Below are positions 38,297 through 57,661 of a DNA stretch of 64,000 bases, one piece after another. The notes under the pieces were generated by a model. That model was not told the origin of the DNA. It ran no database searches and worked only from the letters and a program-made list of their open reading frames with translations. The stretch is from Prostheceraeus crozeri (lineage: Eukaryota > Platyhelminthes > Polycladida > Euryleptidae). The position numbers were made by a program, and so were the translations under genes. How positions within the stretch are numbered: the stretch's first letter is position 1; each line of letters begins with the position of its first letter. The DNA lies in the NCBI GenBank assembly GCA_907163375.1, contig CAJQUW010010428.1:1-64000 (forward strand), given 5' to 3'.

Positions 38297-38903
38297 AGTA
38301 ATGGTCAAAAGACTGTTCCAGGACAGGCCAAAAATAAAAAAAATAGTACTTTTAAAAACGACATAAATTTATGAATTTAGACCCTTTTTCAGGTTTTTAA
38401 GACCTAAATTCATGAATTTGGTTCATTCAAAAAGTACCATTTTTTCAAAAATGGTACTTTTAAAAAACAACATAAATTCATGAATTTGAACCCTTTTTCA
38501 GGTTATGAAGACCTAAATTCATAAATCGGCTAAAGCCAGAGGATCTTCGCTCCGATTTGGGCGTTTTTAAAAATACACAATTTTCAAATTTTTCAAAATC
38601 TCAAATTTGTGATTATGACATTTTTCATTGCTTAAATCATGACCGTTCCAGGACACCGAAAAAATCAGAAAAGTTAAGAATCTCAAATTTGTGATTATGA
38701 CATTTTTCATTGCTTAAATCATGACCGTTCTAGGACACCGAAAATTAGTATTTTTAAAAACGTCTTTTAAATCCATTTTCAGGTTTTTAAAATATATCAT
38801 GTGACTAAAAATATTTCTTTAAAAATGGAAGAAACAAAAGTGGAAGAAACTTCAGAAATGGAAGAAACCTCAAGAATATATCCTTCGTTATCTCAATTAA
38901 AAA
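38297..38903 (+). repeat. Element C left terminal inverted repeat
   Basis: About 607 bp match the inverse of 57056-57661 with few differences. The repeat includes palindromic AAATTCATGAATTT words, two direct copies of an AATCTCAAATTTGTGATTATG block, a GC-rich mini-hairpin at 38525-38556, and the start of an ORF (MEETK). Confidence 0.93.
38525..38556. repeat. GC-rich double hairpin in left TIR
   Basis: ATCGG and CCGAT enclose GGCTAAAGCC and a GGATCTTCGCTCC stem. Here one stem base pair is broken compared with the right TIR copy (GGAGCTTCGCTCC). Confidence 0.8.
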
Positions 38904-38932
38904 CAGGTGAAATGGTTCTCAATTATTATTAA
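38825..38932 (+). pseudogene. Truncated TIR copy of the membrane-protein gene
   Basis: This 35-codon frame starts MEETKVEETSEMEET, identical to the gene at 56414-57133 in the opposite TIR, and stops soon after the TIR ends. A further scrap of the parent gene (LLLRLEHY region) is recognisable to about 38960. The full gene is therefore present only on the right side. Confidence 0.7.
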
Positions 38933-39779
38933 GATTAGAGCACTATGATAAATTAAGAAGACGCAATTATTACTTAGTCATTCTTTGTTATTGTATGCTC
39001 AACATTATTTAAAGTACTAATTGTGTGAACTAGAAGATCATTGTAACTCATAAACTCAAAATTATTCAATGAACCCGTACACTGGCTGATAATTGAAGAG
39101 AGACAGAGATTGAAGAGAGAGACAGAGATTGAAGAGAGAGAAACGTCTAGCAGCTTTCCCCTAAAATTATCATGCTATATCTTGTCATTTCAATTTACCC
39201 ATCGGTAAACTTTTGACATTTCAACTTACGCGTGCGTAAAGTTTTGACATTTCAATTTACCCCTACGTAAATTATTTTCAGAATCTGTTTTCAAAATCTA
39301 TTTTCAAAATCCATTTGCAAAGTCTATTTTAAAATTCAGTTTTAGAAATCGATTTGCAAAATTCATTTAGCGTTTGCCAAACACATACGGGTAGTAAAGT
39401 ACTTCCCATTGTGAAGACATGAATAGATTAAGCACATAAGAGTGCATTGACAATAAAAGCAAATGACAATAAAATTCTTCTTCTGAATTTAGAACGCATA
39501 GACGGCGACATGCGGGATAGTTGTTATGACAATTTTAAACAATCATTTTAACGATGAAACATATTTTACAAATGAAGTTCATGAAGAAAAATGGAAATAT
39601 ATAAAACAATATAGATTAGAATCGGCTAAAGCCAGAGGAGCTTCGCTCCGATAATTATAATATAATCATTTCAAAATCGAATAAGTAGTAAGGAAAGACA
39701 TCATTAGAGAACAGTTTTAAATCAATACCCCCTCCCTTCTGTCTTCTAGGGGTCCCTTAAGAAATTTTTTTATTATAAA
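38933..39779. other. Element C left subterminal region, no gene
   Basis: This region holds short repeats (AGAGAGACAGAGATTGA at 39095-39140; TTTTGACATTTCAATTTAC-like units at 39180-39270; TTCAAAATC-like units at 39280-39360) and a perfect GC-rich hairpin at 39621-39652. No ORF of note is present. It may contain the protease promoter. Confidence 0.55.
39621..39652. repeat. GC-rich double hairpin
   Basis: ATCGGCTAAAGCC plus GGAGCTTCGCTCCGAT: two triloop stems (AAA and TTC loops) inside an ATCGG/CCGAT outer pair, identical to the copies at 42277-42308 (variant loop) and 57402-57433 in inverse orientation. Confidence 0.85.
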
Positions 39780-40241
39780 ATGAGCAACATAAATGAGTTT
39801 TTTAAATTATATGGAACACAAACGACAACGAATTTTGACCTAAAGAAAATCGCAAATCAATTAGGAATAAAGAATTTTCATGTTCTAATGAGAAACGAAT
39901 TACAATTCCTAAAAAATAGGCCAACAGGAACCTTCAGTTCCCGGAACAAAGTTCCATCAATAACTGTAAATTTCATAACGAATCTTCACACTTCAGACCA
40001 AAACGGCGTACATTGGTCAGCAGGTATCTTTAGTAAAAACGGAGATAATTATTATTTTGACTCATACGGGCTTCCACCTACAAATGAAGTAAAAGAATTA
40101 CTTGGAACGGGAACATACAATACATTTCAAATTCAAAAACCGGGAACAACTTATTGTGGACAATTATGTCTTTATGTTTTATTTAAATTACAAAAAGGAG
40201 TACCATTTCTAGATATTATGTTAGAGTTAAACAATCTATAA
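39780..40241 (+). CDS. Adenain-like cysteine protease (element C)
   Basis: The 153-residue C5-type protease has histidine 78 (GVHWSAG), aspartate 94 (YYFDSYGLPP), candidate glutamine 119 and nucleophile cysteine 126 (TTYCGQLCLYVLF). It would cleave capsid and core precursors during maturation. A mini-hairpin sequence (GGAAC-AAA-GTTCC, 39942-39954) lies in the coding region around codons 55-59, in the loop before the catalytic histidine. Only this gene reads plus in the left half of the element. Confidence 0.9.
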   Translation: MSNINEFFKLYGTQTTTNFDLKKIANQLGIKNFHVLMRNELQFLKNRPTGTFSSRNKVPSITVNFITNLHTSDQNGVHWSAGIFSKNGDNYYFDSYGLPPTNEVKELLGTGTYNTFQIQKPGTTYCGQLCLYVLFKLQKGVPFLDIMLELNNL

Positions 40242-40275
40242 CTCAAGCGAAGCTAGCTAAAGCGCCACCTAGAGG

Positions 40276-41616
40276 TTAAAGCTCTGTTTTCTGTAATTCA
40301 TTTTGATAAAAACGACCTCTGATATCTTCATCATCTAAATCTTTAATTTCATAAGTAATCGGATAACTTTGATTTATTTTGCAAACTTCAAATATTTCTT
40401 TAGTCCAATAGCCAACAAAGCCTTTTTCAAATTTGTTCTTATATTTAAATATTCTAACTCTATCTCCAATTTTAAATTTCGATTTAAGTTTCTGCAAATT
40501 CGGATTACTCTCATTCGAATAATTATTCTCGAATATTTTCTTTCGTATTAAATCAGGGTCGTCAGAAGCATTCTTTGGGGTTTCTTCAATACCTGAATGA
40601 ACTTTATTATTGTACTCTTCTACAACTCCTGGTAATATCCTCAACCATTTCTGATTTCCTTGCTGAGTAAACTTTTTGAAAATTTTATTTTTTAACGTCC
40701 GATTGAATCTTTCTATCACTACAGCTTTTCCTGCGTTTTCAGTTGAATAAACAGTTTCAAATAGTGGCTGAACGTTTCGGTTATAAAATTCCGATCCTTT
40801 ATCAACAAACAATTTTTTTGGCTTTCTATTACTTTCTTTAAAGATTTCTTCAAACGCATATTTAACTGATAGACCACTTTTATTTTTTAAAGGTTTTACC
40901 CAAGCGTATCGTGTATATAAATCTATAACTGTCAATGCGTATTTGTAGTCAGACTTTGTCTTAGAACCTTCGGTTCGGTCCCTTTCATTCGGCATATGAA
41001 TAAGATCAGCACTCCAAATATCATCTTTATTAAATACTTTTACTTTTAATAAATATTTAGGCTTTCTATATTCTTTATGAATTTCAGATGCATAAACGCC
41101 TGAATTATGATTTTCATTTAAACCCTGGCCGAATAATATTTTAGCTTGTAAAGCTTTCTTAACAAACATTCTTTCAATTTTTTCTCTAAATGTAGGATTC
41201 TGAATACTATCTAATTCTTGTATCATCTTCTTATCAGCTGCATGTCGAGAACTTAGATCATGATTTCGATAAGCTAAATCATGCCTGTAAGCTGCGGCAT
41301 CTACTCTATTTATCGGTTCTTCACCTGGTTTCGGATTATTATTCTCATCTAGTCTTATATCTAATCGAGTTCCTGGACCGGTATATGAATGACCAGGAAG
41401 ATGTTTTTCTTTCGAATATTTACTCCAAATAAAGCCAGGAAAGTTTTCTAATTTTTTTTGTATGTCACCACCGTAGGTAGTAGCCAAACTTTGTTTGTCG
41501 TCGTTATCTTCATAAATTTTACAATTTGAGTTTTTATTTTTGTTTAATAGATAATTCAATAAATCTAAATTAGAAATTTTTAATTTAGTTAAATTTTCGG
41601 AATTTGTAGAATTCAT
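40276..41616 (-). CDS. Integrase with N-terminal phospholipase-A2-like domain
   Basis: The 446-residue protein has two parts. Residues about 55-165 contain YTGPGTRLD, like the Ca-binding loop, and DAAAYRHDLAY, like the His-Asp catalytic helix (H112, D113) of parvovirus-type VP1 PLA2 domains. Residues about 195-440 form an rve integrase with D204 (WSADLIHM), D272 (FVDKGSE) and E302 (VIERFNRTLK), followed by an SH3-like KIGDRVRIFK segment. No chromodomain or HHCC zinc finger is visible, unlike element A. A hairpin-derived RTEGSKTK insert lies at about residues 214-221. The integrase would insert the element; a PLA2 domain would help entry. Internal cleavage between them is possible. Confidence 0.85.
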   Translation of the reverse strand: MNSTNSENLTKLKISNLDLLNYLLNKNKNSNCKIYEDNDDKQSLATTYGGDIQKKLENFPGFIWSKYSKEKHLPGHSYTGPGTRLDIRLDENNNPKPGEEPINRVDAAAYRHDLAYRNHDLSSRHAADKKMIQELDSIQNPTFREKIERMFVKKALQAKILFGQGLNENHNSGVYASEIHKEYRKPKYLLKVKVFNKDDIWSADLIHMPNERDRTEGSKTKSDYKYALTVIDLYTRYAWVKPLKNKSGLSVKYAFEEIFKESNRKPKKLFVDKGSEFYNRNVQPLFETVYSTENAGKAVVIERFNRTLKNKIFKKFTQQGNQKWLRILPGVVEEYNNKVHSGIEETPKNASDDPDLIRKKIFENNYSNESNPNLQKLKSKFKIGDRVRIFKYKNKFEKGFVGYWTKEIFEVCKINQSYPITYEIKDLDDEDIRGRFYQNELQKTEL

Positions 41617-41692
41617 TTTAAAAGATAAAAAAAAATTAAAAGATAAAATAAAATAATTGTTTTACCGAAAAGAACTAAAGGTTCTGAGGTTA

Positions 41693-42220
41693 TTACCTTA
41701 TCATACTAGGACTTAGATATATTCCAGAACCATCTTTTGTTTCTTTAATTTCAATTAAATCATCAACATTGTGGAGAATATTTTTAAGAACTCGTTTTCC
41801 TTCATCAACTAATTTCAACTTACTAATAAAATTATCTACTACTCCTTTTCCTTCGGGCGAAGCCCTGGAAGACATCTCCGATGTCCCTTCACCCCTAGCA
41901 ACTTTCTCTAACTCTCTATTATGTCGTTTTTGTTCTTCTAATGCAGCCTTCTCTGATTTATTTTTATTTACTGCTTGGACAATACCAGCTGTCCCACCTG
42001 CAACACTTCCTGCTGCAGCTATGCCACCTATTATTAGTGGAATTAATGGGAGAATCCCGCCATTCTTTTCTTCTTGTAATTGAATATTCTCTATCATTGG
42101 TTTACTTATGTAATACTTTTTTTTGTTAATCGTAATATTTTTAGGGGTATTTTTGTCAACAATATTACGTAATTTTAATTCAACAGTTTTATTATTAATA
42201 TTACTTTTCGCTTGCGACAT
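41693..42220 (-). CDS. pVI-like hydrophobic virion protein candidate
   Basis: The 175-residue protein has a Lys/Asn-rich N-terminus, a Gly/Ala/Ile-rich hydrophobic segment at residues 53-85 (NGGILPLIPLIIGGIAAAG), a charged helix and a C-terminal amphipathic region. NGG at the start of the hydrophobic segment could be a maturation cleavage site. Polintons and adenoviruses encode membrane-lytic minor capsid proteins of this style. Residues about 113-121 (TSEMSSRASP) come from a GC-rich hairpin insert shared with PolB. Confidence 0.55.
   Translation of the reverse strand: MSQAKSNINNKTVELKLRNIVDKNTPKNITINKKKYYISKPMIENIQLQEEKNGGILPLIPLIIGGIAAAGSVAGGTAGIVQAVNKNKSEKAALEEQKRHNRELEKVARGEGTSEMSSRASPEGKGVVDNFISKLKLVDEGKRVLKNILHNVDDLIEIKETKDGSGIYLSPSMIR
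41851..41890. repeat. GC-rich double hairpin inside coding sequence
   Basis: GGGC-GAA-GCCC is followed by GACATC-TCC-GATGTC. It is in frame inside the pVI-like gene, encoding the SEMSSRASP peptide on the minus strand. The inverse of the same module occurs in PolB at 53051-53082. Confidence 0.85.
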
Positions 42221-42276
42221 TTTTAATAAAAAATTTTAAGTTAAGAATTTAAAGTTATTTAAATTTTAATTAACCT

Positions 42277-42308
42277 ATCGGAGCAAAGCTCCTCTGGCTT
42301 TAGCCGAT
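42277..42308. repeat. GC-rich double hairpin between genes
   Basis: ATCGGAGC-AAA-GCTCC plus GGCTTTAGCCGAT. It is followed by a GGACC-AAA-GGTCC triloop palindrome at about 42311-42323. Confidence 0.85.
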
Positions 42309-42330
42309 CGGACCAAAGGTCCTAAGGTTA

Positions 42331-43665
42331 TTAACCTATCCTAACCATCTTTCCATTAAGAATTTCAATAGAATATTTTGCATCTTCTAGCAATAAACCA
42401 TAAGCCATCAATGAAGTTGTGGAATCTTTCTTTTCAATATTAATTGTTACATCACAACCATTTTTAATAATATCTTCTGATTGTGCACTTAAATCGAAGC
42501 AGAAAATTGGATATAAATGTCTCCAATCTCCAGGAGTTAATTGTGGTTCAACTCCAAATTCTATACAAAGATTTCTATAAGAATCATATCCTTCCATAAA
42601 TTGATTATTGGTATCATCGAATCTTAATGGATCAATTGGATATCGAGTTTGATTTAATGAAACTTGTAAACTTCGAATTGTATTAATATGGAAGATATTA
42701 TTGTTCTTATCAAAACTTGGAGAATTATTTCTTTGAAATGTTAGTAATAAATATCTTGGAGTATTCGCAGTTCTAGTAAAATGCCAGTTAAATCTTTGTT
42801 CGGAAAAAGTTACTGAACTAGCAGTTCTCTTTAGAAAATTAACTGGAATTGGTTTGTTAGTATTTAATCTTTTTGCAATAGCTGTTTCAATCTCTAAACT
42901 AGGAGTAATATGCTTAATCCACCATTCAAGTCTATCAATTTTTAAATATGCTTTTTTTCCTGTCTTACCAAAAAAGATTAATTCATTATTTGCTGTACGA
43001 TGAATTATTAATTTAAATTTTAATTGATATGATATTTTATCATAATCTAAATATCCGAATAATGGAGACAATGACCAATTTACTGTCTGTTTACTTTTTT
43101 TGTTAAATTCACGTCTTTCTTTATATGCTTCATTATTTGTTTTATTTAAATGTTTTGCAATATTTTCTACATCTTTCGCAATTCCTGCGGCATCTGTTCC
43201 AGCGTGAGTTAAATCATCAATAATTATGCCATCATTAGTATCAGGAAACCAACCTTCGATTTCATGCTTTTTATTATTTTCACCAATTATTACAAATCTA
43301 AGCATTGTATCAATTACACCTGGGGAATCACTTATTGTTTCTATATTTTGAGTTGCAACATCTAAACGCATTTGTGTAAATAAACTTGGGAAAAAATTAT
43401 TCTCTAGTGTAATATTATCGGTATCTGGTAATGGTGTTGTAAAATTAGCATCACTATATAAAGAATATTCACAGTGTAAAAATGAATCAGGTAAATATAA
43501 ATAACTCTGCTGATTATCAACTTCAAAGATTAAATCTCCCCCAGTATTTACTCTACTGGAAGATCCGGGATTCATAGCAATTCTTATATAGTCATTCTTT
43601 TTTTGATTGTAACTGGTGAACGGGGGATCATCTAATCTAAATTTATTTTCGATAAGCGAAGACAT
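42331..43665 (-). CDS. Major capsid protein (element C)
   Basis: The 444-residue protein is of the size and position expected for a Polinton double-jelly-roll capsid protein. Near residues 380-400 it has DWRHLYPIFCFDLSAQSED, which aligns by eye with the FDLTADSD block of the element A capsid protein. Its N-terminal half has several beta-rich segments (SYLYLPDSFLHCEYSLY). It sits between the two candidate minor virion proteins. No hairpin insert is seen inside this gene, in contrast to its neighbours. Confidence 0.8.
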   Translation of the reverse strand: MSSLIENKFRLDDPPFTSYNQKKNDYIRIAMNPGSSSRVNTGGDLIFEVDNQQSYLYLPDSFLHCEYSLYSDANFTTPLPDTDNITLENNFFPSLFTQMRLDVATQNIETISDSPGVIDTMLRFVIIGENNKKHEIEGWFPDTNDGIIIDDLTHAGTDAAGIAKDVENIAKHLNKTNNEAYKERREFNKKSKQTVNWSLSPLFGYLDYDKISYQLKFKLIIHRTANNELIFFGKTGKKAYLKIDRLEWWIKHITPSLEIETAIAKRLNTNKPIPVNFLKRTASSVTFSEQRFNWHFTRTANTPRYLLLTFQRNNSPSFDKNNNIFHINTIRSLQVSLNQTRYPIDPLRFDDTNNQFMEGYDSYRNLCIEFGVEPQLTPGDWRHLYPIFCFDLSAQSEDIIKNGCDVTINIEKKDSTTSLMAYGLLLEDAKYSIEILNGKMVRIG

Positions 43666-43779
43666 TTTTATAAGAAATAATTTGACTTTTTGTTTTTCTC
43701 ACAGATAGAAAAAAATTTTTATTAAATATAATTTTAAAATTTTACTAAATATAATTTTAGAATTTTACTAAATATAATT

Positions 43780-44343
43780 TTAGAATTTTGCTAGACCAGC
43801 TCCGCTACAGCTTTGCTGGTTAGACCGAAGGTTGCTGCTCACGCCATTACCTCTTATTTCTTCAATTGTTTTTTCATTATTTTTATTTTCATTATGTTTA
43901 CTATTAGACGGAGCTCCGCTCCTCAAGGTTTCACCATCAACAGCTATGTTAGCAATTTTGTTTTTTGTTTCATCTGAAAGTTTTTTTAATTTTTTTAGTT
44001 CTTCAGAATCATTCTTGAGTTTACGAATAGCTTCTAGTTGTTTTAATTCGTTTTGTGATTTAACAGCATTTGATATTGCACTAGCTGTACTACCTATAGC
44101 AGCTGCTCCTTTTGCAGCAGATGTAATCAAATCTTTATTATTTTTAATTAAGTTAACGATACTACCAATACCAGAAAAGATGCCATCCCCTTCTTTTTGG
44201 ATGGCACCTGCGGTGCCTAGGAACTTTTCTGTTCCGACTGTTTCTCTATTATCATAATGATAAACAGGATTCATACGTGGTTCATGAGCAATTTTTTGAT
44301 TTGAAGCAAAATGTTTAAGATTGTGTTTATAAATTATAGGCAT
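43780..44343 (-). CDS. Candidate minor virion or core protein ending GAGLAKF
   Basis: The 187-residue product has a small Ala/Gly-rich hydrophobic helix (residues about 68-95, AAKGAAAIGSTASAI), a Lys/Glu coiled-coil-like segment (105-130) and a C-terminus GAGLAKF. Short G-x-GL termini are common in adintovirus and adenovirus pX/pVI-type proteins processed by adenain. GC-rich hairpin sequences fall in its C-terminal region and near the N-terminal third (GTAGAIQKE). The virion role is inferred from composition and neighbours. Confidence 0.45.
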   Translation of the reverse strand: MPIIYKHNLKHFASNQKIAHEPRMNPVYHYDNRETVGTEKFLGTAGAIQKEGDGIFSGIGSIVNLIKNNKDLITSAAKGAAAIGSTASAISNAVKSQNELKQLEAIRKLKNDSEELKKLKKLSDETKNKIANIAVDGETLRSGAPSNSKHNENKNNEKTIEEIRGNGVSSNLRSNQQSCSGAGLAKF

Positions 44344-44384: not shown

Positions 44385-44435
44385 CGGACGAAGCGCGAAG
44401 CGCGAAGCGCGAAGCCCTGGAAGACATCTCCGTTG
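44385..44435. repeat. GCGCGAA tandem plus double-hairpin module
   Basis: Repeats of GAAGCGC (x3) precede GAAGCCCTGGAAGACATCTCCG, the same module as at 41851-41890, in an intergenic place. Confidence 0.75.
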
Positions 44436-44469
44436 ACCCATGAACCGATATCCATTATAAAAAAAATGT

Positions 44470-45777: not shown

Positions 45778-46710
45778 ATGGAAATGACTCAAATTTGTCA
45801 AGTTTGCAATATGCGTTTTTTAAATCAAACACTATTATATTCTCATATGAAAAACACACCATGTGGTATGCATATGAATCAATTACAACCTAATAATATA
45901 CAACCTAATAATATACAACCTAATAATATTCAACCTAATAATATTCAGAATAATATTCAACCTAATAATAGTATTCAGTATAATAATATTCAATCAGAGC
46001 AACCATTACAAAGATTAAAGCATTTATTTATTTCAGATAAAGAACAAAATCTTTATACTGCTAGAATAAATACACCTAGGCAAAATACTGCTAGAATAAA
46101 TACACCTAGGCAAAATACTGCTAGAATAAATACTGCTAGAATAAATACACCTAGGCAAAATAATAATAATTATTTAGCACAAAATAATAATGTAGCACAA
46201 AATAATCCTTTTGTTCAAAATAATCCTTTTGTTCAAAATAATAATGTAGCACAAAATAATTATATTGATAAAAATCAATTTGTTGAAAGTAATAACAAAA
46301 AAATATGTACCGGATGTAATAAAAATATAACATCAAAAAATTTTGCACGTCATTTAAAATTATGTGAACAAACAGAAGAGGTTAAAAAAGAAAAAAAAGA
46401 TAAATTAAAAGATCAGTTATGTCGTAATTGTAATAAATATTTTACAAATCAAGGAATTACTAATCATTATAATTCTTGTATAAGTTCTACAAGACAATGT
46501 ACAAGTTGTCAAAATACTAAACCTAAGACAGAGTTTTATGATAGTAAATATCAGTGTAAGGATTGTTTAAAGGAAAAAGTAAAATGTAGAGGTTGTCAAA
46601 AAATTATATTAAAGAAAAATTTTCAGCGACATGTAACACTATGTCCAAAACTTAATCAACATAATAATCAACATAATAATAATTTATGTCAAAATAATAA
46701 TTTATGTTAA
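45778..46710 (+). CDS. Multi-zinc-finger protein with internal repeats
   Basis: The 310-residue protein opens with a C2H2 finger (ICQVCNMRF, then H and C). It has low-complexity repeats QPNNI (residues 36-60) and ARINTPRQNT (about 98-130), then NNPFVQ repeats. The C-terminal half holds at least four C-x-x-C zinc sites (CTGCNKNI, CRNCNKYF, CTSCQNTK, CRGCQKII). It is the first plus-strand gene after the divergent promoter region. A regulatory nucleic-acid-binding role is plausible. Confidence 0.55.
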   Translation: MEMTQICQVCNMRFLNQTLLYSHMKNTPCGMHMNQLQPNNIQPNNIQPNNIQPNNIQNNIQPNNSIQYNNIQSEQPLQRLKHLFISDKEQNLYTARINTPRQNTARINTPRQNTARINTARINTPRQNNNNYLAQNNNVAQNNPFVQNNPFVQNNNVAQNNYIDKNQFVESNNKKICTGCNKNITSKNFARHLKLCEQTEEVKKEKKDKLKDQLCRNCNKYFTNQGITNHYNSCISSTRQCTSCQNTKPKTEFYDSKYQCKDCLKEKVKCRGCQKIILKKNFQRHVTLCPKLNQHNNQHNNNLCQNNNLC

Positions 46711-46800: not shown

Positions 46801-46831
46801 AATAAAATATTATTTTATTAAAATATTCTTA

Positions 46832-46958
46832 AGCATTCCGGAAGAGAGGAGAGGTATAAAAACACTTCTTTTGAGTATAGGAACAAAAAGTCCGACACAT
46901 TCCGGAGGTTCTACAGAGGTTAAAAACACTCATAAGAGTGTAAGAATGCGAGTCCGGA
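46832..46958. repeat. Diverged about 62-bp direct repeat with TATAAAAA
   Basis: Two units start CATTCCGGA and share a GAGGT-(A)-TAAAAACACT core. The first unit contains TATAAAAA at 46855-46862. They lie upstream of the ATPase gene at 47004 and may form its promoter. Confidence 0.5.
46855..46862 (+). promoter_or_regulatory. Candidate TATA box for the right-half genes
   Basis: TATAAAAA lies 142 bp upstream of the ATG at 47004, inside a duplicated 62-bp unit. In such A/T-rich DNA the match alone is weak evidence. Confidence 0.3.
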
Positions 46959-47003
46959 ATTAAAAAATAATAATTCCTAAATTTTTTATTTAAAAAATAA
47001 TAA

Positions 47004-48578: not shown

Positions 48579-48612
48579 AAACCGAAGGTTCTAGGGCTTC
48601 GCGCTTCGCACG
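48579..48612. repeat. AACCGAAGGTT and GC-rich hairpins between genes
   Basis: AACC-GAA-GGTT is followed by TAGGGCTTCGCGCTTCGCA, a decayed form of the GGGCTTCGCCC module. Confidence 0.7.
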
Positions 48613-48710: not shown

Positions 48711-51700
48711 ATGGAAAAATTTTATTGCAACTTATGTAAAAAAAAGTTACAAACAAAAAGAAGTTATCAATCTCATCTACAAAGTAAAATGCATTTACAA
48801 AATGTAGAACGAGTTGATGAAGGAAATATATTAAAATTAAATAGTTATAAAAACTATATAGAAACATTGCCTACTGATATAAAAGTTAAAAAAATATTTT
48901 ATGATTATTCACATTCGGAATATAAAAAAGTTTTTAATAGTGAAGATGAAGCCGTAACAGATATAAAATATTTATTTAGCGATACTGATGAATTTAACGA
49001 AATAGATGAATTTAACGAAATAGATGAATTTGATGAAGCTGAACGAACCGATGAAGCCTTAGCAAATATAAAATATTTATTTAATCAGTCTTTTGAACAT
49101 AATGAAACCGATAAAACTTTTTCTGATATTCTAACCAACTTTTATAATATATTTAAGAAATCTTTCAAATGTTATATGAATGTAGAAGTACTTTATACAA
49201 AAAATGGACCTGACGGAATTCCTGAAGAAATAATACAAGGACATTTTACAAAGTCACAAGAAATTCATAATGTAAATGATATACAACCCATATTTGAATC
49301 GATGATACTTAAATTAGAAAATTGTATAATTGAAGCCCAGTTACGTGAATCTGGTTGGAGATTTGTTAAAATAATATCTAAGAAAATAGTAATTGATAAA
49401 TATAAAAATAATACTGGTGGTAGTTATGTTCCTTTACCTTTCAGTTCACCACAATTAATCAACATAAAAAATGAAGATGATTATTGTTTTCTGTGGAGTA
49501 TTATAGCACATTTACATCCTGCAAAATATCATAAAGAAAGACTAAGTCATTACAATAAAGAAGAATACATAAGTGAATTTGATCTTTCTGATGGCTTAGA
49601 TGAATTTCCATATGATTATAATAGGTTACTAAAGTTTCATAAAAAGAATAAAAATTTAATTGAAGTAAATGTTTTTGAATTAAATGTGAATTATGTTTCT
49701 ATTGGTAAAATTACTCCACTATACTCAGATTCAAAAAAATTTTATTTGAATAATAAAAATTTATGCCAATCAGAAATAGTATATAATGATAGAGGAAATT
49801 ACATGCATCATAATATTTTTTACCAAGGAAATATAATATGTACTGAAAAATTTGAACTTGTTAAAACACTATCACCAATAATGATTAATCATAATAATTA
49901 TAAAGGACGTACTGATGATTATAATTACAAATATTCATCTTTATCTTCAGAATACCAACAAAAATTAGAAAATTTAAATAAAAGTTTACAAAAATGTAAA
50001 ATAGATTATCAACAACAAACAAAAATGTTACTACAAGAATATCACCATAAATATCAAAATAAGATAGAAACAATTCAAAAATTAAATGAAGAAAATAATA
50101 AAAAATTAAATAATGAAGAATTAAATAATGAAGAAAATGAAACCAAACAAAAAATAAATGAATGTTTAAAAAAATGTCTACAACAATATAAAGAACAATA
50201 TGATAAAGAATATAGTTATCAGTTACAAATATTAAATCAAAATTATTATCAAAATACATTTAATCTTACAAAAGAAATTAATGAAACACATGAAATATAT
50301 CAAGATAAATTTGAAAAATTAGAACAGTCAAAACAACCAGCACAAGCGAATATATTATATTATCAGGGTCATTTTATATTGTGTAAAGATGTTTCTATAT
50401 TTACAAAAACTTCAGATAATAAAAATTTTCCTTGTCTTCAATGTATGACAAGTTTTAGAACTTTAGAAGAAATGAATAGACATTTGGAGAATTGTCAACA
50501 AAACGAAGCAGTTCAAAATACTTTTCCTAAAGATGATTATTTAGAATATAATAAATGGTATTTTAAAAATAAAGTACCCTTTACTATTTATTGTGATTTT
50601 GAAGCATATAATGTTAATATGACACAAAATCGAACGGAAAGTTCCAGGGCTTCACCCGATTCTGAAAATTATAATTCTGAAAAAAGTGCGCCTGAAAAAA
50701 GTGCGCCTGGAAAAAGTTCAGCTGAACAAAGTAAAGAAAAATATTTATTTGAACAAAAACCATTATGTTGGGGAATGTACATTCATTCAAATTATCCTGA
50801 ATTATTTAAATCAGAATATTTACAATACTATGGTGAAGACAGTTCAGAAATGTTTACAAAGAAAGTAGAAGAATTACAAGGACGTTTTTCACAATTGCTT
50901 GAAACAAATAAACCAATGATACCATTAACGGATGAAGAAAGAAAAGAATTTTATGATGAAATAAATTGTTATTACTGTGGAAAAGGTTTTACAAATAAAT
51001 ATAAAACTGGCAGAGGTAGATATATTGATAAAGTAAAAGATCATGATCATCTAAATGGATTATATAGAGGTGCAGCACATAATTCTTGTAATCTTAATGC
51101 TAACAAATTTAAATATAACTTTGTTCCTTTATATTTCTATAATGGTTCTAAATATGATTTCCATCTAGTAATGAAAGATTTATTTTCATCTGAAAAATTA
51201 CAACAACAAAAAATAAATGTACTATGTAAACAAGAAGAAGAATATTTTTCAATGCAATTAGGTTGTATTAGAATTTTAGATGCATTTAGATTTTTTACTC
51301 CTTATTCATTAGATGTTATGGGAAAAACTTTGAAACCTGAACAATGTAAAATATTAAATAAATATAATTTAAAACCTTTAAAAGGAATATTTCCGTATGA
51401 GTATATAGCCTGCGGCTCACAGTCGAAGACTGATATAACTGGAGATAAAACCTGTGGTTCACAGTCGAAGACTGATTTTAACTCTGTGAATACAATTATG
51501 GAAGAAGAACAACTTCCTCCAATAAATAAATTTAAATCAACATTAAAACAATCACAATTATCTGACGAAGACTATGCAGAAGCTGAAAAGAATTGGAGAG
51601 AGTTAAATTGTAAAACAATGTATGATTATACAATGAAATATCTACAGATAGATGTATTAATACTAGCTGATCTTTTTGAAAACTTTCGTGATATGTGTTT

Positions 51701-53315
51701 AGAATATTACGGAATAGATCCATGTTATTGTTATTCTACACCAGGTTTAACATGGTTAGCAGGATTAAAACATACTGGTGTTCAAGCCGATGGCTCTAGG
51801 ACAAAGTCCGTTAAACTTAAACATTATAAAGAAAATACATATGATAAATTATTATTTTTTGAATCTGGAATTAGAGGTGGAGTTTCATCAGTTTTAGGTA
51901 ATAGATATGTTAAATGTTATAATAAGAAAGTAAATCCACAAGAATATGGAATAATGAAACCTTTATCTCCAGAAGAAAAAGAAAAAATATTAGAAATTTT
52001 TCGAACAAAACGAGAAGGAGTAGAACGTGAAAAAGCAATTGATGAATTCATGCGAGAAAACTATTTGTTATATTATGATTTTAATAGCTTATATTCTTCT
52101 TGCATGATACAAGAATTACCAACAGGTGAAATGACATGGTGTAATAATCTTGTTTATCAAAGAACATATGATGGTGAAAATAATTTTGGTTATGTATATG
52201 AAGTTGATTTAGTATATCCTGATTATATAAAAGACGCAACAAAATATTATCCTTTCTGTCCAGAAAACAAAATTCCCAATATAGAAGATTTTTCAGATTA
52301 TCAAAAATCTATAATTCCGAAAAAATACAGACCAACAAAAAAACTTATGTTAACACAAAGTAATAAAGGAAAGTATGTTGTTGAAGGAAGAATGCTAGAT
52401 TGGTATTTAAATCATGGCATGATTCTCACCAAAATACATCGAAAACTAGAGTATAGAAAATCTAAATGGTTAAAAAATTATATAGAGTTCAATATTGAAA
52501 AACGCAAAATATCTAAAAGAAATAAAGATGATTTTGGAAACGTTTTCTTCAAATTAATGAATAATGCATTTTATGGTAAGACTTTAGAAAATGTGCGTAA
52601 TAGACAAAATATTGAAATAGTTTATGATAGAGATAGATTTCAAAATTTAACAAGGAAACCTACATATAAAAGAACTACTAGATTCAGTGATGAACTTTGT
52701 GCTGTTCATCTAAGAAGAAGCATTGTAAAACATGATAAGTTTAATTTCATTGGTTTCACTATATTAGAATTAGCTAAACTATTTATGTATAGTTTTATAT
52801 ATGATTATTTAGCACCTGCTTATGGTAAAAACTATAAATTACACTTTACAGATACCGATTCTATTTTCTTAGAATTAACAGTACCATATGGTTCTTCACT
52901 AGATAAAGAAATTAATAAAATAAAAGATATTATTCATCCTTCTGATTTATGTAAAGTAAAAGATGAATTAGAAGGAAATGAAGATTTCATAACAGAAGCT
53001 ATATTTTTAAAATCTAAATGTTACTGTTATGATACAACTAATAATATTAGGACATCGGAGATGTCTTCCAGGGCTTCGCCCGTTAAAACACATAAAACAT
53101 TAAAAGGAATTTCAAAGGCATCAGTGGTTAATCAAATAACATTTCAAGATTATAAAAATGCATTATTTAATAATGAAATAAAAACAGCATATAATTATAG
53201 ACTTAATTCAAAAAAACATAAAATGTATTTAAAAGAAGAACATAAATTAGCATTAGATCCATTTGATGATAAAAGAAAAATTTTACCTGATGGAATAACT
53301 ACTTTACCTTTTTAA
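48711..53315 (+). CDS. Protein-primed family B DNA polymerase
   Basis: The 1534-residue protein has, in order, an N-terminal C2H2 finger (CNLCKKKL, residues 5-27) and an N-terminal domain to about 300 with GGSYVPLP (235). A coiled coil lies near 420-540 and a second C2H2 finger near 580. Exo I is CDFEAYN (about 627). A CYYCGKGF plus KDHDHLNGLYRGAAH HNH-like zinc module spans 752-790, then Exo II NGSKYDF (813) and Exo III YLQIDVLILAD (977). PolA is YYDFNSLYSS (1122), PolB LMNNAFYGKT (1282) and PolC TDTDSIF (1382). All catalytic aspartates are present. It would replicate the linear element by protein priming. Two in-frame SSRASP inserts and a duplicated GSQSKTD insert derive from GC-rich hairpins. 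Confidence 0.95.
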   Translation: MEKFYCNLCKKKLQTKRSYQSHLQSKMHLQNVERVDEGNILKLNSYKNYIETLPTDIKVKKIFYDYSHSEYKKVFNSEDEAVTDIKYLFSDTDEFNEIDEFNEIDEFDEAERTDEALANIKYLFNQSFEHNETDKTFSDILTNFYNIFKKSFKCYMNVEVLYTKNGPDGIPEEIIQGHFTKSQEIHNVNDIQPIFESMILKLENCIIEAQLRESGWRFVKIISKKIVIDKYKNNTGGSYVPLPFSSPQLINIKNEDDYCFLWSIIAHLHPAKYHKERLSHYNKEEYISEFDLSDGLDEFPYDYNRLLKFHKKNKNLIEVNVFELNVNYVSIGKITPLYSDSKKFYLNNKNLCQSEIVYNDRGNYMHHNIFYQGNIICTEKFELVKTLSPIMINHNNYKGRTDDYNYKYSSLSSEYQQKLENLNKSLQKCKIDYQQQTKMLLQEYHHKYQNKIETIQKLNEENNKKLNNEELNNEENETKQKINECLKKCLQQYKEQYDKEYSYQLQILNQNYYQNTFNLTKEINETHEIYQDKFEKLEQSKQPAQANILYYQGHFILCKDVSIFTKTSDNKNFPCLQCMTSFRTLEEMNRHLENCQQNEAVQNTFPKDDYLEYNKWYFKNKVPFTIYCDFEAYNVNMTQNRTESSRASPDSENYNSEKSAPEKSAPGKSSAEQSKEKYLFEQKPLCWGMYIHSNYPELFKSEYLQYYGEDSSEMFTKKVEELQGRFSQLLETNKPMIPLTDEERKEFYDEINCYYCGKGFTNKYKTGRGRYIDKVKDHDHLNGLYRGAAHNSCNLNANKFKYNFVPLYFYNGSKYDFHLVMKDLFSSEKLQQQKINVLCKQEEEYFSMQLGCIRILDAFRFFTPYSLDVMGKTLKPEQCKILNKYNLKPLKGIFPYEYIACGSQSKTDITGDKTCGSQSKTDFNSVNTIMEEEQLPPINKFKSTLKQSQLSDEDYAEAEKNWRELNCKTMYDYTMKYLQIDVLILADLFENFRDMCLEYYGIDPCYCYSTPGLTWLAGLKHTGVQADGSRTKSVKLKHYKENTYDKLLFFESGIRGGVSSVLGNRYVKCYNKKVNPQEYGIMKPLSPEEKEKILEIFRTKREGVEREKAIDEFMRENYLLYYDFNSLYSSCMIQELPTGEMTWCNNLVYQRTYDGENNFGYVYEVDLVYPDYIKDATKYYPFCPENKIPNIEDFSDYQKSIIPKKYRPTKKLMLTQSNKGKYVVEGRMLDWYLNHGMILTKIHRKLEYRKSKWLKNYIEFNIEKRKISKRNKDDFGNVFFKLMNNAFYGKTLENVRNRQNIEIVYDRDRFQNLTRKPTYKRTTRFSDELCAVHLRRSIVKHDKFNFIGFTILELAKLFMYSFIYDYLAPAYGKNYKLHFTDTDSIFLELTVPYGSSLDKEINKIKDIIHPSDLCKVKDELEGNEDFITEAIFLKSKCYCYDTTNNIRTSEMSSRASPVKTHKTLKGISKASVVNQITFQDYKNALFNNEIKTAYNYRLNSKKHKMYLKEEHKLALDPFDDKRKILPDGITTLPF
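50632..50660. repeat. Hairpin insert in PolB after Exo I
   Basis: CGAACGGAAAGTTCCAGGGC followed by TTCACCCG: an imperfect GGGCTTC(A/G)CCC stem next to a GAAC/GTTC stem. It encodes RTESSRASP, followed by Ser/Glu/Lys/Pro repeats (EKSAPEKSAPGKSS). Confidence 0.75.
51409..51475. repeat. Duplicated CAGTC-GAA-GACTG hairpin insert in PolB
   Basis: Two copies of a CACAGTCGAAGACTGAT unit, each preceded by CCTG(C/T)GG(C/T)T, encode CGSQSKTDITGDKTCGSQSKTD between the Exo II and Exo III motifs. Confidence 0.8.
53051..53082. repeat. GC-rich double hairpin inside PolB C-terminal region
   Basis: GACATC-GGA-GATGTC plus GGGC-TTC-GCCC, in frame, encoding TSEMSSRASP after the PolC motif. It is the inverse of the module at 41851-41890. 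Confidence 0.88.
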
Positions 53316-53438
53316 TTTTCTAATTTCTATTTTCTAAATATAACAATATAAAAATATAAAAATATAAAATATTATAAAATATTATAAAATAATATAATAA
53401 TATAACATAAAATAATAATATAAAATTATCATATAAAA

Positions 53439-54254
53439 ATGGATAAAGTTAGAGCTGATAATTTTAAAAGAATAAAACAATTAGACGAATTAATAAAACA
53501 AAGAAATATTATGAAAGAAAATCATCTTCAACATAGAATGACAAAAGCTGGTATTCAATCTGATATGTTTGATAAATTAAAATTAACTGAAGAAGTAAAA
53601 ACTGATTATGAAAAAACTGTCAAACCATTTAAAACTCTTGAAAAGGAACTTAATGAAAAACGTGTTGATATAGCGGATCCTGTACTTAAAACACTATTAG
53701 ATGACTATGGTTTATTAGAGGCAAACATAGATAAAAAATTACCAAAATCTATGTTATTCGAACATTCTACTTTCTTTTTAGATAAAAAATTATTTGCAAG
53801 ATTTTATCTTGGTGGTAAAGAAATATTTCCACAACCTTTACGAGGATTAATTTTTACTCCAGATAAAAAACCTATTAGTTTAGATAGAAATTTTGTTGAT
53901 CTTTTAAGAGGAGCAGATTTAAAAAATTATGCTGTAGAAGATCTAATAAAATATAAAACTATATTAGATAGAGTTGGCACAGTAAAAACTCTTAGACGTT
54001 ATAAACAATTAGAAAATTTATTATCAACGGGAGTTAAAGTAGGGAAAGGTTTATCTGAAAAACAGAAAACAGAAACAACTGTATTTTTACCAGATGATCC
54101 ACAAGAATTACTAAATAGATTAAATATTTTAATATCGGCAATAAAAGAAGGACATAATTCTAGTTTTAATGAAATTCATGCTATATTGAAAAGACTGTTA
54201 GAAAAGAAGATTCTAAATGAAGAGGATTATAAAAGTATAACCGGTCATCTCTGA
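53439..54254 (+). CDS. Conserved Polinton protein of unknown function, 271 aa
   Basis: Residues 1-35 (MDKVRADNFKRIKQLDELI) duplicate the 57-residue protein at 44470. The middle has a compact block (PLRGLIFTPDKKPISLD). The C-terminus has QELLNRLNILISAIKEGHNSS and ILKRLLEKKILNEEDY, a helical pair I associate with a conserved gene near the penton and ATPase genes of many Polintons. It might correspond functionally to the 230-residue protein of element A, but I cannot show homology by eye. The stop codon falls within a GC-rich hairpin pair. Confidence 0.5.
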   Translation: MDKVRADNFKRIKQLDELIKQRNIMKENHLQHRMTKAGIQSDMFDKLKLTEEVKTDYEKTVKPFKTLEKELNEKRVDIADPVLKTLLDDYGLLEANIDKKLPKSMLFEHSTFFLDKKLFARFYLGGKEIFPQPLRGLIFTPDKKPISLDRNFVDLLRGADLKNYAVEDLIKYKTILDRVGTVKTLRRYKQLENLLSTGVKVGKGLSEKQKTETTVFLPDDPQELLNRLNILISAIKEGHNSSFNEIHAILKRLLEKKILNEEDYKSITGHL

Positions 54255-54312
54255 TGTCCTCCAGGGCTTCGCCCGAACCGGTCATCTCTGATGTCCTCCA
54301 GGGCTTCGCCCG
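54240..54312. repeat. Tandem pair of AACCGGTCATCTCTGATGTCC hairpin modules
   Basis: Two copies of a 37-bp unit hold GGGC-TTC-GCCC and an imperfect GACATC/GATGTC stem. The first copy supplies the last codons and the stop of the preceding gene. Confidence 0.85.
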
Positions 54313-54395
54313 TAGCTGAAATATGTTGTTGTTTTTAATTTTTTATAAAAAAAATATTTCATAAAAAAATATTTATTTAATTTTTTAGTTTAAAA

Positions 54396-55184
54396 ATGTG
54401 TTCAGCAGATTTAGACAAAATTAATAATCATTTAGAAAATTTGATAGAGATTTTGGGTTCATCAAAATTTAGTACGACGTTAAAAATTATAACAACTACT
54501 TCATCACACACTTGTAATTTAGAACCCATTCTACATTTGGAACAAAATAAAAATTATCAAATTGCATTGACTAGTTTCTCTACATTTAACACTATTCAAA
54601 ACGTTATCAAAGATGTGAATGATCAATTTAGATATTCTACTGATAAAGGCAAAACGTGGAAAGTACTAACTTTTCTTCCTGGTTCTTACGAAGTTGAATC
54701 AATATCAAATGAAATTAAGAGACATTTAGGTATACCATTTAAAGATAAGAAACAATTACATTTTGCAGTTGAACCGGCAGTTAATAAATTTTCTCTTACT
54801 TTAGACGAAAATCATCAAGTTGATTTTAATCATGATAGATCATTGTCAAAGCTATTAGGATTTAATAAGCAAACCTATAGTCAAGGTTATCATTTAGGTG
54901 AGAAGATTCCAAAAATAACTGAAATAAATTCAATTGTTGTACATTGTGACATTATTGAAGGAGGATATATAAATGGTAAATTATCAAATTTAATATTCAG
55001 TTTTCCAGCTTTTACTGTACCCATTGGTTATAGATTAAATGTAATTCCACAAACATTAATATATTTTCCTATTACAAGAAAAACTATTAACAACATTGGC
55101 ATTAGAATCACTGATGAAAAAGGACAAGAAATAAATTTTGGAGGTGAAGAGATTATGATAGATCTTTTGGTTCGGGAGGTATAA
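54396..55184 (+). CDS. Penton-like minor capsid protein (single jelly roll)
   Basis: The 262-residue protein has the order expected for Polinton/adintovirus penton proteins: NYQIALTSFSTFNTIQNV near residues 52-69, PGSYEVESI (about 97), LLGFNKQTYSQGYH (about 153), a V-x-x-HCDIIEGGYINGK block (about 185) and a final GQEINFGGEE. It would sit at capsid vertices. The last codons (VREV) and stop come from the start of a GGGAGGTATAAACTCCC repeat array. Confidence 0.7.
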   Translation: MCSADLDKINNHLENLIEILGSSKFSTTLKIITTTSSHTCNLEPILHLEQNKNYQIALTSFSTFNTIQNVIKDVNDQFRYSTDKGKTWKVLTFLPGSYEVESISNEIKRHLGIPFKDKKQLHFAVEPAVNKFSLTLDENHQVDFNHDRSLSKLLGFNKQTYSQGYHLGEKIPKITEINSIVVHCDIIEGGYINGKLSNLIFSFPAFTVPIGYRLNVIPQTLIYFPITRKTINNIGIRITDEKGQEINFGGEEIMIDLLVREV

Positions 55185-55229
55185 ACTCCCGTTCGGGAGG
55201 TATAAACTCCCGTTCGGGAGGTATAAACT
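55170..55229. repeat. Three GGTTCGGGAGGTATAAACTCCC-type units
   Basis: GGGAG and CTCCC flank a GTATAAA loop, and the unit is repeated about three times with the last one incomplete. It covers the end of the penton-like gene and its 3' region. Confidence 0.85.
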
Positions 55230-55377
55230 TTTACGCTACAATAGAGAAGTTTAATTTTTTTTATCATTTTCATTATTAATCTTATTAATCTTATTAATCT
55301 TATTATTAGAAACAAAAAATAAACTTAAATTAAAATTTTATTTTTATTTTTTTGTTTCTAAAAACACTAATTCAATA

Positions 55378-56166
55378 ATGGATAAATTTATTACTTTAAA
55401 AATGAATGAAATGTCTTTAAATAAAAAAAAACTTAAATTTAATCATCATCCAAATTTATCTAATAAAGTTTTAGCAGTTATTTGCGGAAGATCAGGATGT
55501 GGAAAAACGTATCTATCATTTAAAATTTTAACGACTCCAAATTTTTTGGATTATAACAATCTTATAATTTATACAACAACGGCAGAACAATCCGTCTATC
55601 AATTTTTAAAATATGGATTTGAAAATAATCTTACAAAAACAGCAATTGCTTCTCTATTCGAAGAATATGAAAAATCTGAATATGAAGAAGAAATAAATTT
55701 GTGGTGTGAAGAAGCAGCAAAAAATAAACAATTAGTTGAATCCAATAAAAATAAACATATAAAAATACAATTAATAGATGATAGTGGTAATATGCAAGAT
55801 CCTAGTAAACTAGATAAAACAATGAAACATTGTGTAATTTTTGATGATTGTGTTAATGATAGAAATCAGTCAGTTCAGAGAAATTATTTCACAAGAGGTA
55901 GACATAATAACTGTAGTGTATTTTATTTGACACAAAGTATGTATTCATTAGATGGAAGTGTTATTAGAAAGAATGCAAATATATTTATACTATTTGAAAT
56001 AAATGCAAGAAACTTAAGTGATTTGTTAAGAGATTTATGTATAAGAGATAAAGATGAATTTAAACAATCGTGTAACAATGCTTGGTCAAAAGATTATGGA
56101 TTTATCACAATTAATATTGATAAAAAAATTCATGAAAGAGTTATCGAACAATTGTTTACCGAGTAA
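55378..56166 (+). CDS. FtsK/A32-type genome-packaging ATPase (element C)
   Basis: The 262-residue protein has Walker A GRSGCGKT (37-44), Walker B CVIFDDCV (about 150) and the sensor block FTRGRHNNCSVFYLTQS. This is the usual Polinton packaging ATPase by size and position next to the penton-like gene. It would translocate DNA into the capsid. The frame is intact. It is probably the ancestor-type paralogue of the larger membrane-anchored ATPase at 47004. Confidence 0.88.
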   Translation: MDKFITLKMNEMSLNKKKLKFNHHPNLSNKVLAVICGRSGCGKTYLSFKILTTPNFLDYNNLIIYTTTAEQSVYQFLKYGFENNLTKTAIASLFEEYEKSEYEEEINLWCEEAAKNKQLVESNKNKHIKIQLIDDSGNMQDPSKLDKTMKHCVIFDDCVNDRNQSVQRNYFTRGRHNNCSVFYLTQSMYSLDGSVIRKNANIFILFEINARNLSDLLRDLCIRDKDEFKQSCNNAWSKDYGFITINIDKKIHERVIEQLFTE

Positions 56167-56413
56167 TAAAAATATACAAATATAATGTTTTAATATTTTA
56201 TTTTTTATTATCAGCTTTAATTTTGTCTATTTTTTTAAAATATAATATTTGAATTTTGTGGTAACATTGGTATACAGCAAAAACATTTTACTGAACAAAT
56301 TATTTTTTTATTGCTTTGTTGTTTGTAATCTTTTCGTTTAAAGTTTTCACGTTTCAAGTTTTCACGTTTAAAGTTTTCACGTTTAAAATTTTCACGTTTA
56401 AAATTTTCCTGTT
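56167..56413. repeat. TTTTCACGTTTAAAG tandem units, no gene
   Basis: From about 56332 to 56410 a 16-17-bp unit is repeated four to five times and merges into AAGTTTTGT(C/T)TAATA units. The latter run into the end of the next gene and encode its TLLDK/TLLNK C-terminal repeats. Confidence 0.6.
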
Positions 56414-57133
56414 TTAAGTTTTGTTTAATAAAGTTTTGTTTAATAAAGTTTTGTCTAATAAAGTTTTGTCTAATAAAGTTTTTAGCTCTTCTAAAAAAAT
56501 TTTTTCATTTTCTTCATTAAAAATTTTATCATCAATAAAAGTTTTACCATCACTAGAAATTTTACCATCCTTTTTATTTTTATCATTAACTTTTTCTGTC
56601 TGTGATTGAAATGATATTTGATTTACTTCATTAGCTATTTGATCAAATTTTTCAATCTCATCTAACGTAATAACATTATCATCACATACTCTTTGAAAGT
56701 AGTAGTGTAGTTTATCATAGACTTCTTTAATATGTAAATGCTTAGTTTTTAATGATTTTCGTTTCTTTGATATTAAAGATTTATCTAACATTGTAACAAG
56801 TGAAGTTGCAAAAACACCCGTACCTGTTAAAGCTGTAGCAACTACTGGAATTACTAAAACACCTGAAGATATAACAATTGTTAAAGCACCTAAACTTATT
56901 GTTAAGAATATGCCAATTCCTTGTGTTACATTCTTAACTTTACTCCATCTCTTTCTTAATTTTTTATAATGCTCTAATCTTAATAATAATTGGGATTCCT
57001 TATCTTTCATATAACGTACTCTATCTTTGTGTTTTTCAATATTTAATTCACTTATTTTTAATTGAGATAACGAAGGATATATTCTTGAGGTTTCTTCCAT
57101 TTCTGAAGTTTCTTCCACTTTTGTTTCTTCCAT
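56414..57133 (-). CDS. TIR-borne two-helix membrane protein
   Basis: The start is placed at MEETKVEE (57133); an upstream GTG is possible. The 239-residue protein has a charged N-terminus lying inside the right TIR and a hydrophobic region at about residues 75-120 (GIGIFLTISLGALTIVI and VLVIPVVATALTG) consistent with two membrane helices. A helical domain follows, and the C-terminus consists of TLLDK/TLLNK repeats made by a 17-bp DNA repeat. I do not recognise the family. A truncated duplicate of its 5' end is in the left TIR. Confidence 0.5.
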   Translation of the reverse strand: MEETKVEETSEMEETSRIYPSLSQLKISELNIEKHKDRVRYMKDKESQLLLRLEHYKKLRKRWSKVKNVTQGIGIFLTISLGALTIVISSGVLVIPVVATALTGTGVFATSLVTMLDKSLISKKRKSLKTKHLHIKEVYDKLHYYFQRVCDDNVITLDEIEKFDQIANEVNQISFQSQTEKVNDKNKKDGKISSDGKTFIDDKIFNEENEKIFLEELKTLLDKTLLDKTLLNKTLLNKT

Positions 57134-57661
57134 TTTTAAAGAAATATTTTTAGTCACATGATATATTTTAAAAACCTGAAAATGGATTTAAAAGACGTTT
57201 TTAAAAATACTAATTTTCGGTGTCCTAGAACGGTCATGATTTAAGCAATGAAAAATGTCATAATCACAAATTTGAGATTCTTAACTTTTCTGATTTTTTC
57301 GGTGTCCTGGAACGGTCATGATTTAAGCAATGAAAAATGTCATAATCACAAATTTGAGATTTTGAAAAATTTGAAAATTGTGTATTTTTAAAAACGCCCA
57401 AATCGGAGCGAAGCTCCTCTGGCTTTAGCCGATTTATGAATTTAGGTCTTCATAACCTGAAATAGGGTTCAAATTCATGAATTTATGTTGTTTTTTAAAA
57501 GTACCATTTTTGAAAAAATGGTACTTTTTGAATGAACCAAATTCATGAATTTAGGTCTTAAAAACCTGAAAAAGGGTCTAAATTCATAAATTTATGTCGT
57601 TTTTAAAAGTACTTTTTTTTTTATTTTTGGCCTGTCCTGGAACAGTCTTTTGACCATTACT
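57056..57661 (-). repeat. Element C right terminal inverted repeat
   Basis: This is the inverse of 38297-38903, with only a few substitutions and a poly-A length difference. It contains the coding start of the membrane-protein gene and a perfect GC-rich hairpin at 57402-57433. Confidence 0.93.
57402..57433. repeat. GC-rich double hairpin in right TIR
   Basis: ATCGGAGC-GAA-GCTCC followed by GGCTTTAGCCGAT: perfect stems, unlike the left TIR copy, which has a mismatch. Confidence 0.85.

Follow-up and report, generated by a model that had tools for sequence, protein, structure and literature searches.

A very probably mobile family of short double-hairpin modules in a Polinton of the flatworm Prostheceraeus crozeri

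Several families of short palindromic DNA are the closest described systems to the one reported here, which occupies element C, a Polinton/Maverick within a 64,000-nucleotide stretch of the flatworm Prostheceraeus crozeri (contig CAJQUW010010428.1, positions 1 to 64,000; this whole stretch is hereafter the window). The GC clusters (GC42) of Saccharomyces mitochondrial DNA are short, GC-rich palindromes set in AT-rich DNA, which vary among strains and are bordered by short repeats (AG or ACT); their loops are more variable than their stems, and units merge and shuffle (PMC4478555). The mitochondrial double-hairpin elements of Allomyces and fission yeast consist of two small hairpins, and comparisons among relatives have led to the view that they are mobile (PMC10085805 and PMC7218506, with Paquin 2000 cited there). 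Nearly all of the fission-yeast elements described there are intergenic or lie in rRNA genes, and the Allomyces elements reportedly lack flanking duplications (PMC2800124). Sponge mitochondria contain repetitive hairpin-forming elements, which multiplied fast in an animal lineage (PMC2800124). Rickettsia palindromic elements are mobile bacterial units of about 150 bp that lie in frame in unrelated genes and encode a conserved peptide (PMC10969869), and the bypassed inserts of Magnusiomyces mitochondria are short blocks in protein genes, found at 81 positions (PMC5009743).

Element C contains many copies of a module, in which a spacer of 1-5 bases joins a pair of small GC-rich hairpins. It is very likely that these hairpins belong to double-hairpin mini-elements of about 20-37 bp that are mobile and spread by copying within the Polinton family. 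That the modules form a mobile family can be said with high confidence: whole units have inserted, are dispersed to many sites, are flanked by short target repeats at most sites tested, have fused with each other, and keep the frame in genes. The original prediction, made from the letters of the window, had seen in them a palindromic module family similar to fungal double-hairpin and Rickettsia palindromic elements, and both the family and the similar behaviour are supported. Like the GC clusters and double-hairpin elements as described, the modules are pairs of short GC-rich palindromes with a short spacer in AT-rich surroundings, present or absent as exact units; short repeats are shared with the GC clusters. 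Unlike them, the modules reside in integrated Polinton copies within large contigs rather than in mitochondria, their flanks are varied repeats of 2-4 bp (not AG/ACT, and unlike the Allomyces elements), and many of them are in frame in genes. With the Rickettsia elements they share in-frame residence in unrelated genes and a recurrent peptide (TSxMSSRASP-type, in PolB and the pVI-like protein), whereas the units (inserts of 24-42 bp) are far shorter and inhabit a eukaryotic virus-like element. The sponge elements occupy mitochondrial intergenic regions, with no in-frame insertions noted in the portion of that source used here, while the modules are in genes too; the Magnusiomyces inserts, as described, break the frame and are skipped in translation, while the modules keep it. 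The modules are not counted as members of any of these groups, since location (GC clusters, double-hairpin elements) and length (Rickettsia) differ, and their tie to the fungal and rickettsial elements is one of resemblance in how they work. An origin of the units from host mitochondrial hairpin repeats, or from the double-hairpin elements of another organism, would account for an architecture like that of the mitochondrial double-hairpin and sponge elements, but no sequence link was found, the host mitochondrial DNA lying outside the search, and we regard such an origin as unlikely. As had been claimed, no module family of this kind in Polintons was found in the open-access literature, and a word search of the main text of three papers on Polinton-like viruses returned no palindrom- or hairpin term (PMC12220804, PMC10120064, PMC12721341).

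Structurally, the family-2 unit is GGACATC-GGA-GATGTC/TTCCA/GGGC-TTC-GCCC-G and the family-1 unit is CGGCTAAAGCC/AGA/GGAGC-TTC-GCTCC-G, while further units include CAAGCC-GAT-GGCT/CTA/GGAC-AAA-GTCC-G and AGCC-TGC-GGCT/CA/CAGTC-GAA-GACTG. One palindrome first given as GGCT-AAA-GCC is really GGC-TAAA-GCC or GGCT-AA-AGCC. Stems recur with differing loops, such as GACATC with GGA, AAA or AGA. When seven strands (six units, one of them on both strands) were folded as DNA, all gave two hairpins, with z from -1.2 to -3.0 against shuffles. Set beside a miniature inverted-repeat transposable element, the unit folds into two separate hairpins, and family 1 shows short inverted ends (CGG/CCG) as well.

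The variation among copies in the window's own assembly (2.05 Gb, 14,165 contigs; copies labelled L0xx/L1xx) carries much of the argument. For PolB, 30 copies at 96-100% identity were scored from a larger candidate set, and for the left 5 kb eight copies were compared. Presence/absence variation among close relatives, which the original prediction had put forward as a check, was found at exact sites in near-identical copies: 12 coding sites and several non-coding ones are filled in some and empty in others, and ten PolB sites, together with sites in the integrase, pVI-like and protease-like genes, hold in-frame modules in some copy. Two 30-bp modules in PolB, at 51405..51434 (forward strand; ACGSQSKTD) and 51447..51476 (forward strand; KTCGSQSKT), are each absent from four of the 30 copies (L072, L073, L075 and L076 for the former; L072, L074, L075 and L078 for the latter). 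Both are present in 21 copies and neither in two, each stands singly in two, and they are fused into one in three (L068, L069, L085). A 36-bp insertion at 53047..53082 (forward strand), with a 33-bp family-2 unit reading TSEMSSRASP, is missing from 3/30 copies (L071, L083, L084). Other sites are empty in the window and are given without a strand: 49092..49093, with a 39-bp family-2 insertion in two of the 23 covering copies (L060, L076); 50104..50105, with a 30-bp family-1 insertion in 8/30; 51028..51029, with a 24-bp double-hairpin insertion in one copy of 30 (L070); and 52146..52147, with a 39-bp family-2 insertion in 2/30 (L064, L082). Near 49036, two of 23 copies (L074, L078) have a 30-bp module and most others a shorter, different stretch. 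At 50631, where the window has its own module, L094 and L100 have another. On the tree of PolB copies, one to four changes per module are needed for six modules.

The left part of the element varies likewise. A 30-bp module in the open reading frame (ORF) of the phospholipase-A2-integrase (40948..40977, reverse strand; RTEGSKTKS) is empty in two of eight copies (L088, L093), while at 41111..41112 in the same integrase gene, a site empty in the window and given without a strand, four of eight (L090-L093) have a 33-bp double-hairpin insertion. Near window position 41095, L092 and L093 show a 27-bp tandem expansion of a module half within the integrase frame. In the pVI-like ORF, a 42-bp insertion with a 33-bp family-2 unit (41844..41885, reverse strand) is empty in 2/8 (L092, L093) and again reads TSEMSSRASP, so that one module encoding this peptide in both the pVI-like protein and PolB, as first described, was confirmed at both places. 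In the protease-like ORF 39780-40241, a 33-bp in-frame insertion with two GGAAC hairpins (39921..39953, forward strand) is empty in one of eight (L090).

Homologous proteins give a second comparison. Had close homologues contained the same residues with no gap, the original prediction would have been in difficulty; gaps were found at module sites instead. The 28-bp PolB module at 51783..51810 (forward strand; TT/TT flanks; QADGSRTKS) faces a 10-residue gap in all nine aligned homologues (the best nine of 120 listed, among 673 found), none of which has CGSQSKTD repeats. Homologues P0003 and P0005 have unrelated inserts at the TSEMSSRASP site, and the site of the 28-bp module at 50631..50658 (forward strand; AT/AT flanks; RTESSRASP) is variable in length. 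The integrase module is absent from the 17 homologues aligned (of 120 listed), with an exact 10-residue gap in 12 and 3-5 unrelated residues in five. SSRASP occurs in none of the 16 pVI-like homologues aligned out of 40; in P0241 (89% in the alignment) and P0244, ARG[DE]G directly joins [IV]VDNF, where the window has 14 extra residues. Six-frame readings of 16 units shared a 5-residue word with 28 of 280 homologous proteins, and the five inspected all had it elsewhere. These comparisons bear on a rival in which the modules are ancestral and have been lost by precise deletion between short repeats. Such deletion would yield identical empty sites, and the fused modules of L068, L069 and L085 look deletion-like, but aligned homologues lack the modules, some modules occur in only one or two of 30 copies, and identical units at different sites require copying; this rival is highly improbable.

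Within genes, the modules inserted in frame, as had been proposed. All 12 module-type coding indels are divisible by three (24 bp, five of 30, two of 33, 36, two of 39, and 42 bp), and the non-coding ones include two at 54239 (38 and 31 bp), one at 41670 (29 bp) and one at 42334 (30 bp). The units have three to six open frames, yet within a family the same frame is reused, and the family-2 readings in PolB are TSEMSSRASP (window), TSKMSSRASP (L060) and TSEMSTRASP (L064). L076, with the 49092 insertion, is out of frame from the start because of an upstream indel, and L082 stops short of the start. One could instead read the hairpins as functional RNA signals under selection, such as terminators or 3'-end and processing signals, given that several are intergenic or at gene ends and that one gives a stop codon. 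Many, however, lie deep within open frames and vary in presence among near-identical copies, and Rfam returned no match at gathering scores, which disposes of a known RNA family; we give this reading very little credence.

The ends of the insertions are also informative. Ten of the 11 filled/empty pairs tested have direct repeats of 2-4 bp (TTA, ATA, GAT, TT, ATC, GTC, TT, TA, TA, AAGG), while under random placement the chance of at least 2 bp is 13.3% per site; the pairs at 49036, 50104 and 51028 stand outside this test. The idea of a 27-bp unit that always duplicates 3 bp was considered and dropped, as the repeats span 2-4 bp. The right end of family 2 is fixed (..GCCCG, with one extra C in L113) and its left end differs by a few bases among sites. 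Whole units, short target repeats and high copy number are what non-autonomous transposons would show if a dedicated transposase were supplied in trans by the host or another element. Against such a transposase stand units of only about 20-37 bp, the variable length of the repeat, the ragged left end, and the 6 bp that element C's own insertion duplicated, and we find it a doubtful explanation.

The copy number of the modules in the genome is large. GGAGCTTCGCTCC has 6,453 exact matches in the genome vs 24 for the reversed pattern, CAGTCGAAGACTG has 3,125 vs 87, and the 22-base family-2 core has 2,556 vs 0 for its control. The eight places cut out for GGAGCTTCGCTCC were all in relatives of element C. 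So were all 20 places for the 22-base core, chosen among the matches listed, where it occupies eight sites, separated by at most about 12 kb in the element, and the best segment is 83.5-98.7% identical. The search for modules elsewhere in the genome, also foreseen in the original prediction, led from thousands of matches back to element C relatives wherever sampled. The exact end of element C has 64 genome matches, vs thousands of module copies, so most modules are probably in more distant family members. Outside this genome, no relative was confirmed in viral_contigs by searches with PolB, the PolB alignment and the integrase alignment, and none was found in phage records; a 16-bp module core matched 47 stretches in viral_contigs, and longer module patterns had no match in viral_contigs or genome_contigs.

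The excess of hairpins over chance was assessed by a strict scan (a loop of exactly 3 on a stem of 4 or more with no fewer than 3 G/C) and 60 shuffled controls with dinucleotides preserved inside 500-bp blocks. Element C has 26 strict triloop hairpins, most of them paired in modules, vs a shuffle mean of 1.6 and maximum of 4, so the density is far above the shuffled controls and the claim of triloop palindromes in the terminal inverted repeats, between genes and in coding sequence is borne out. With a stem of at least 5 the count is 13 vs 0.9 (shuffle maximum 4). Every loop length from 0 to 10 exceeds its shuffle mean (4-13 for the other lengths vs 1.4-2.0), the next highest being loops 2 and 10 with 13 each; element C has a general surplus of short inverted repeats, with its maximum at loop 3. 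Scaled to the length of the element, the rest of the window has 7.8 at loop 3 and 6-11 at other loop lengths, hence no such peak, and none of the nine named module hairpins (eight of which are present in element C) occurs in those other 44.6 kb. Chance or composition as the source of the modules is ruled out by the shuffles and by the genome counts with reversed-pattern controls.

How the modules move is a matter on which we are tentative. Polinton replication is generally taken to be protein-primed and to run by strand displacement, which would expose single strands. It is possible, though less than probable, that stable single-stranded hairpins are captured or copied in the course of this replication and that the modules move in this way. 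The mobile form would be a single-stranded hairpin: hairpin pairs on displaced or broken strands may enter staggered breaks in other Polinton copies, either by capture or through copying by template switching, fill-in of the stagger would leave the short repeat, and selection would retain in-frame, hydrophilic readings. Captured resistant fragments would be expected to leave short repeats of variable length at such breaks, and template switching to produce one fixed and one ragged end. Extraordinary stability and nuclease resistance are described for DNA mini-hairpins that have GNA or GNNA loops and two or more G-C pairs (PMC4686876). A set of 37 distinct triloop hairpins from element C and the fetched copies was compared with 18 from the rest of the window: a C-G closing pair, in the purine-loop orientation, occurs in 28/37 vs 6/18, and a GAA loop in 7/37 (191 of 396 copies) vs 0/18. 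A more far-reaching idea, to which we attach considerable doubt, is that the modules are transposase-free selfish DNA, very stable and nuclease-resistant mini-hairpins that might persist as single-stranded fragments of the element, which replicates by strand displacement, and be recaptured repeatedly at breaks, the Polinton serving as habitat and in-frame protein loops being seeded on the way. Copying by template switching or slippage in replication, with no free DNA intermediate, may also be entertained, tentatively: tandem and fused modules, the 7-bp and 27-bp expansions, and the fixed right and ragged left ends speak for it, and one unit at eight sites spread over up to about 12 kb, with target repeats, is unlike simple slippage.

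A number of observations weigh against reading the modules as mobile units of this kind. Those at 50631 and 51783 are in 30/30 copies, so that mobility there rests on the homologues, and the sites at 49092 and 52146 are each filled in two copies that are distant on the tree; modules shared by such copies indicate that exchange between copies moves modules too. Other PolB indels of at least 15 bp are likewise multiples of three, which makes frame-keeping a matter of selection on the genes and not a property of the modules. A substitution in the flank kept the protease pair from scoring a repeat; inspected by eye, L091 has ATCA on both sides. Purine-N-A loops are found in 26/37 module hairpins vs 14/18 in the rest of the window and were dropped as a mark of modules, so only the GAA loops and the C-G closing pair are left to carry the ultra-stable-loop argument, and the capture route and the transposase-free reading receive less weight. 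The genomic places were sampled only among the matches listed, and modules beyond the element C family are possible. Finally, no movement enzyme was identified, and the insertions are known from comparison of copies.

The host, element C, is 19,365 bp long (38297..57661, strand not assigned; its extent had first been given as 38525..57433) and is a complete Polinton/Maverick by its terminal inverted repeats (616 bp, 99.2% identity), its 6-bp target duplication (TCGGAA at 38291-38296 and 57662-57667), and its PolB, integrase, ATPase and capsid genes. Pfam recognises the rve integrase, the A32-type ATPase and the double jelly-roll capsid protein (PF00665, PF04665, PF21738); the only Pfam match of PolB itself is zf-met, and its homologues have PF03175. 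ORF 39780-40241 has no Pfam match, and its motifs suggest a putative adenovirus-type cysteine protease. The frame at 40276-41616 fuses a phospholipase-A2-like domain (PF08398) to the rve integrase, and most of the 120 listed among its 974 homologues have both domains (sources ena, jgi, lgn). The empty site is near 28571, in an uninterrupted copy of a duplicated stretch of the window, to which the joined flanks of element C align over 602 columns at 99.3%, and near 9 kb lies a third and older stretch with an 87% match. The duplication is tandem with a 9,720-bp offset (21549-28577 vs 31268-38297, 99.9% over 7,030 bp), and element C adjoins only the second copy. The G+C content is about 22-32% per kb in the element and mostly 33-44% in its flanks.

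Family-1 modules also occur in the left terminal inverted repeat (38527..38554, forward strand), where the second hairpin has decayed to GGATC-TTC-GCTCC, in the right one (57404..57431, reverse strand), where the module is intact with AT/AT flanks, in an intergenic position at 39623..39650 (forward strand; AT/AT flanks), and between the pVI-like and capsid genes (42279..42306, reverse strand), followed by a further hairpin pair at 42310-42337, a region variable among copies. Known from the window sequence alone are hairpins in frame at the 3' end of ORF 43780-44343 (43787..43838, reverse strand) and, in frame in the same ORF, a GGAGC-TCC-GCTCC hairpin with a weak partner (43909..43935, reverse strand). 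The module positions of the original prediction held, except that the copy at 44400 is part of an expanded GCGAA array in an intergenic family-2 module (44385..44435, reverse strand), a site that holds the 22-bp core in L097 and L106. Upstream of PolB, an intergenic module (48580..48612, forward strand) varies among copies by a single GCTTCGC repeat of 7 bp. Two tandem family-2-like modules (54239..54312, forward strand) stand at the 3' end of ORF 53439-54254, and the first of them provides the stop codon; among copies this site has none, one, two or a different module. Other repeats of the element are tandem TTCGGGAGGTATAAACTCCCG units, a palindrome of longer loop, at 55168-55225, at the end of ORF 54396-55184, and imperfect TTCCGGA and GTCCGGA repeats at 46831-46960, between ORFs 45778-46710 and 47004-48542. 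Elsewhere in the window, 1-1535 has a strong strand skew (GC skew about -0.5) and a long open frame rich in His, Pro, Gln and Thr. The open frames at 2400-10400, which we take to resemble remnants of a different Polinton, have a chromodomain in 7406-8038 as their sole Pfam match and lack the named module hairpins.

The case for mobile hairpin elements has come largely from mitochondria, whose low copy numbers give little purchase on the mechanism. In the present instance, a single genome has thousands of module copies, filled and empty sites, variants of ends and loops, and fusions, which makes their movement testable by counting. The modules are a source of new protein segments, in PolB, the integrase, the pVI-like protein and the protease-like protein. 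A virus-like transposon that has itself been invaded by tiny mobile units offers an unusually clear look at the spread of very short mobile DNA.

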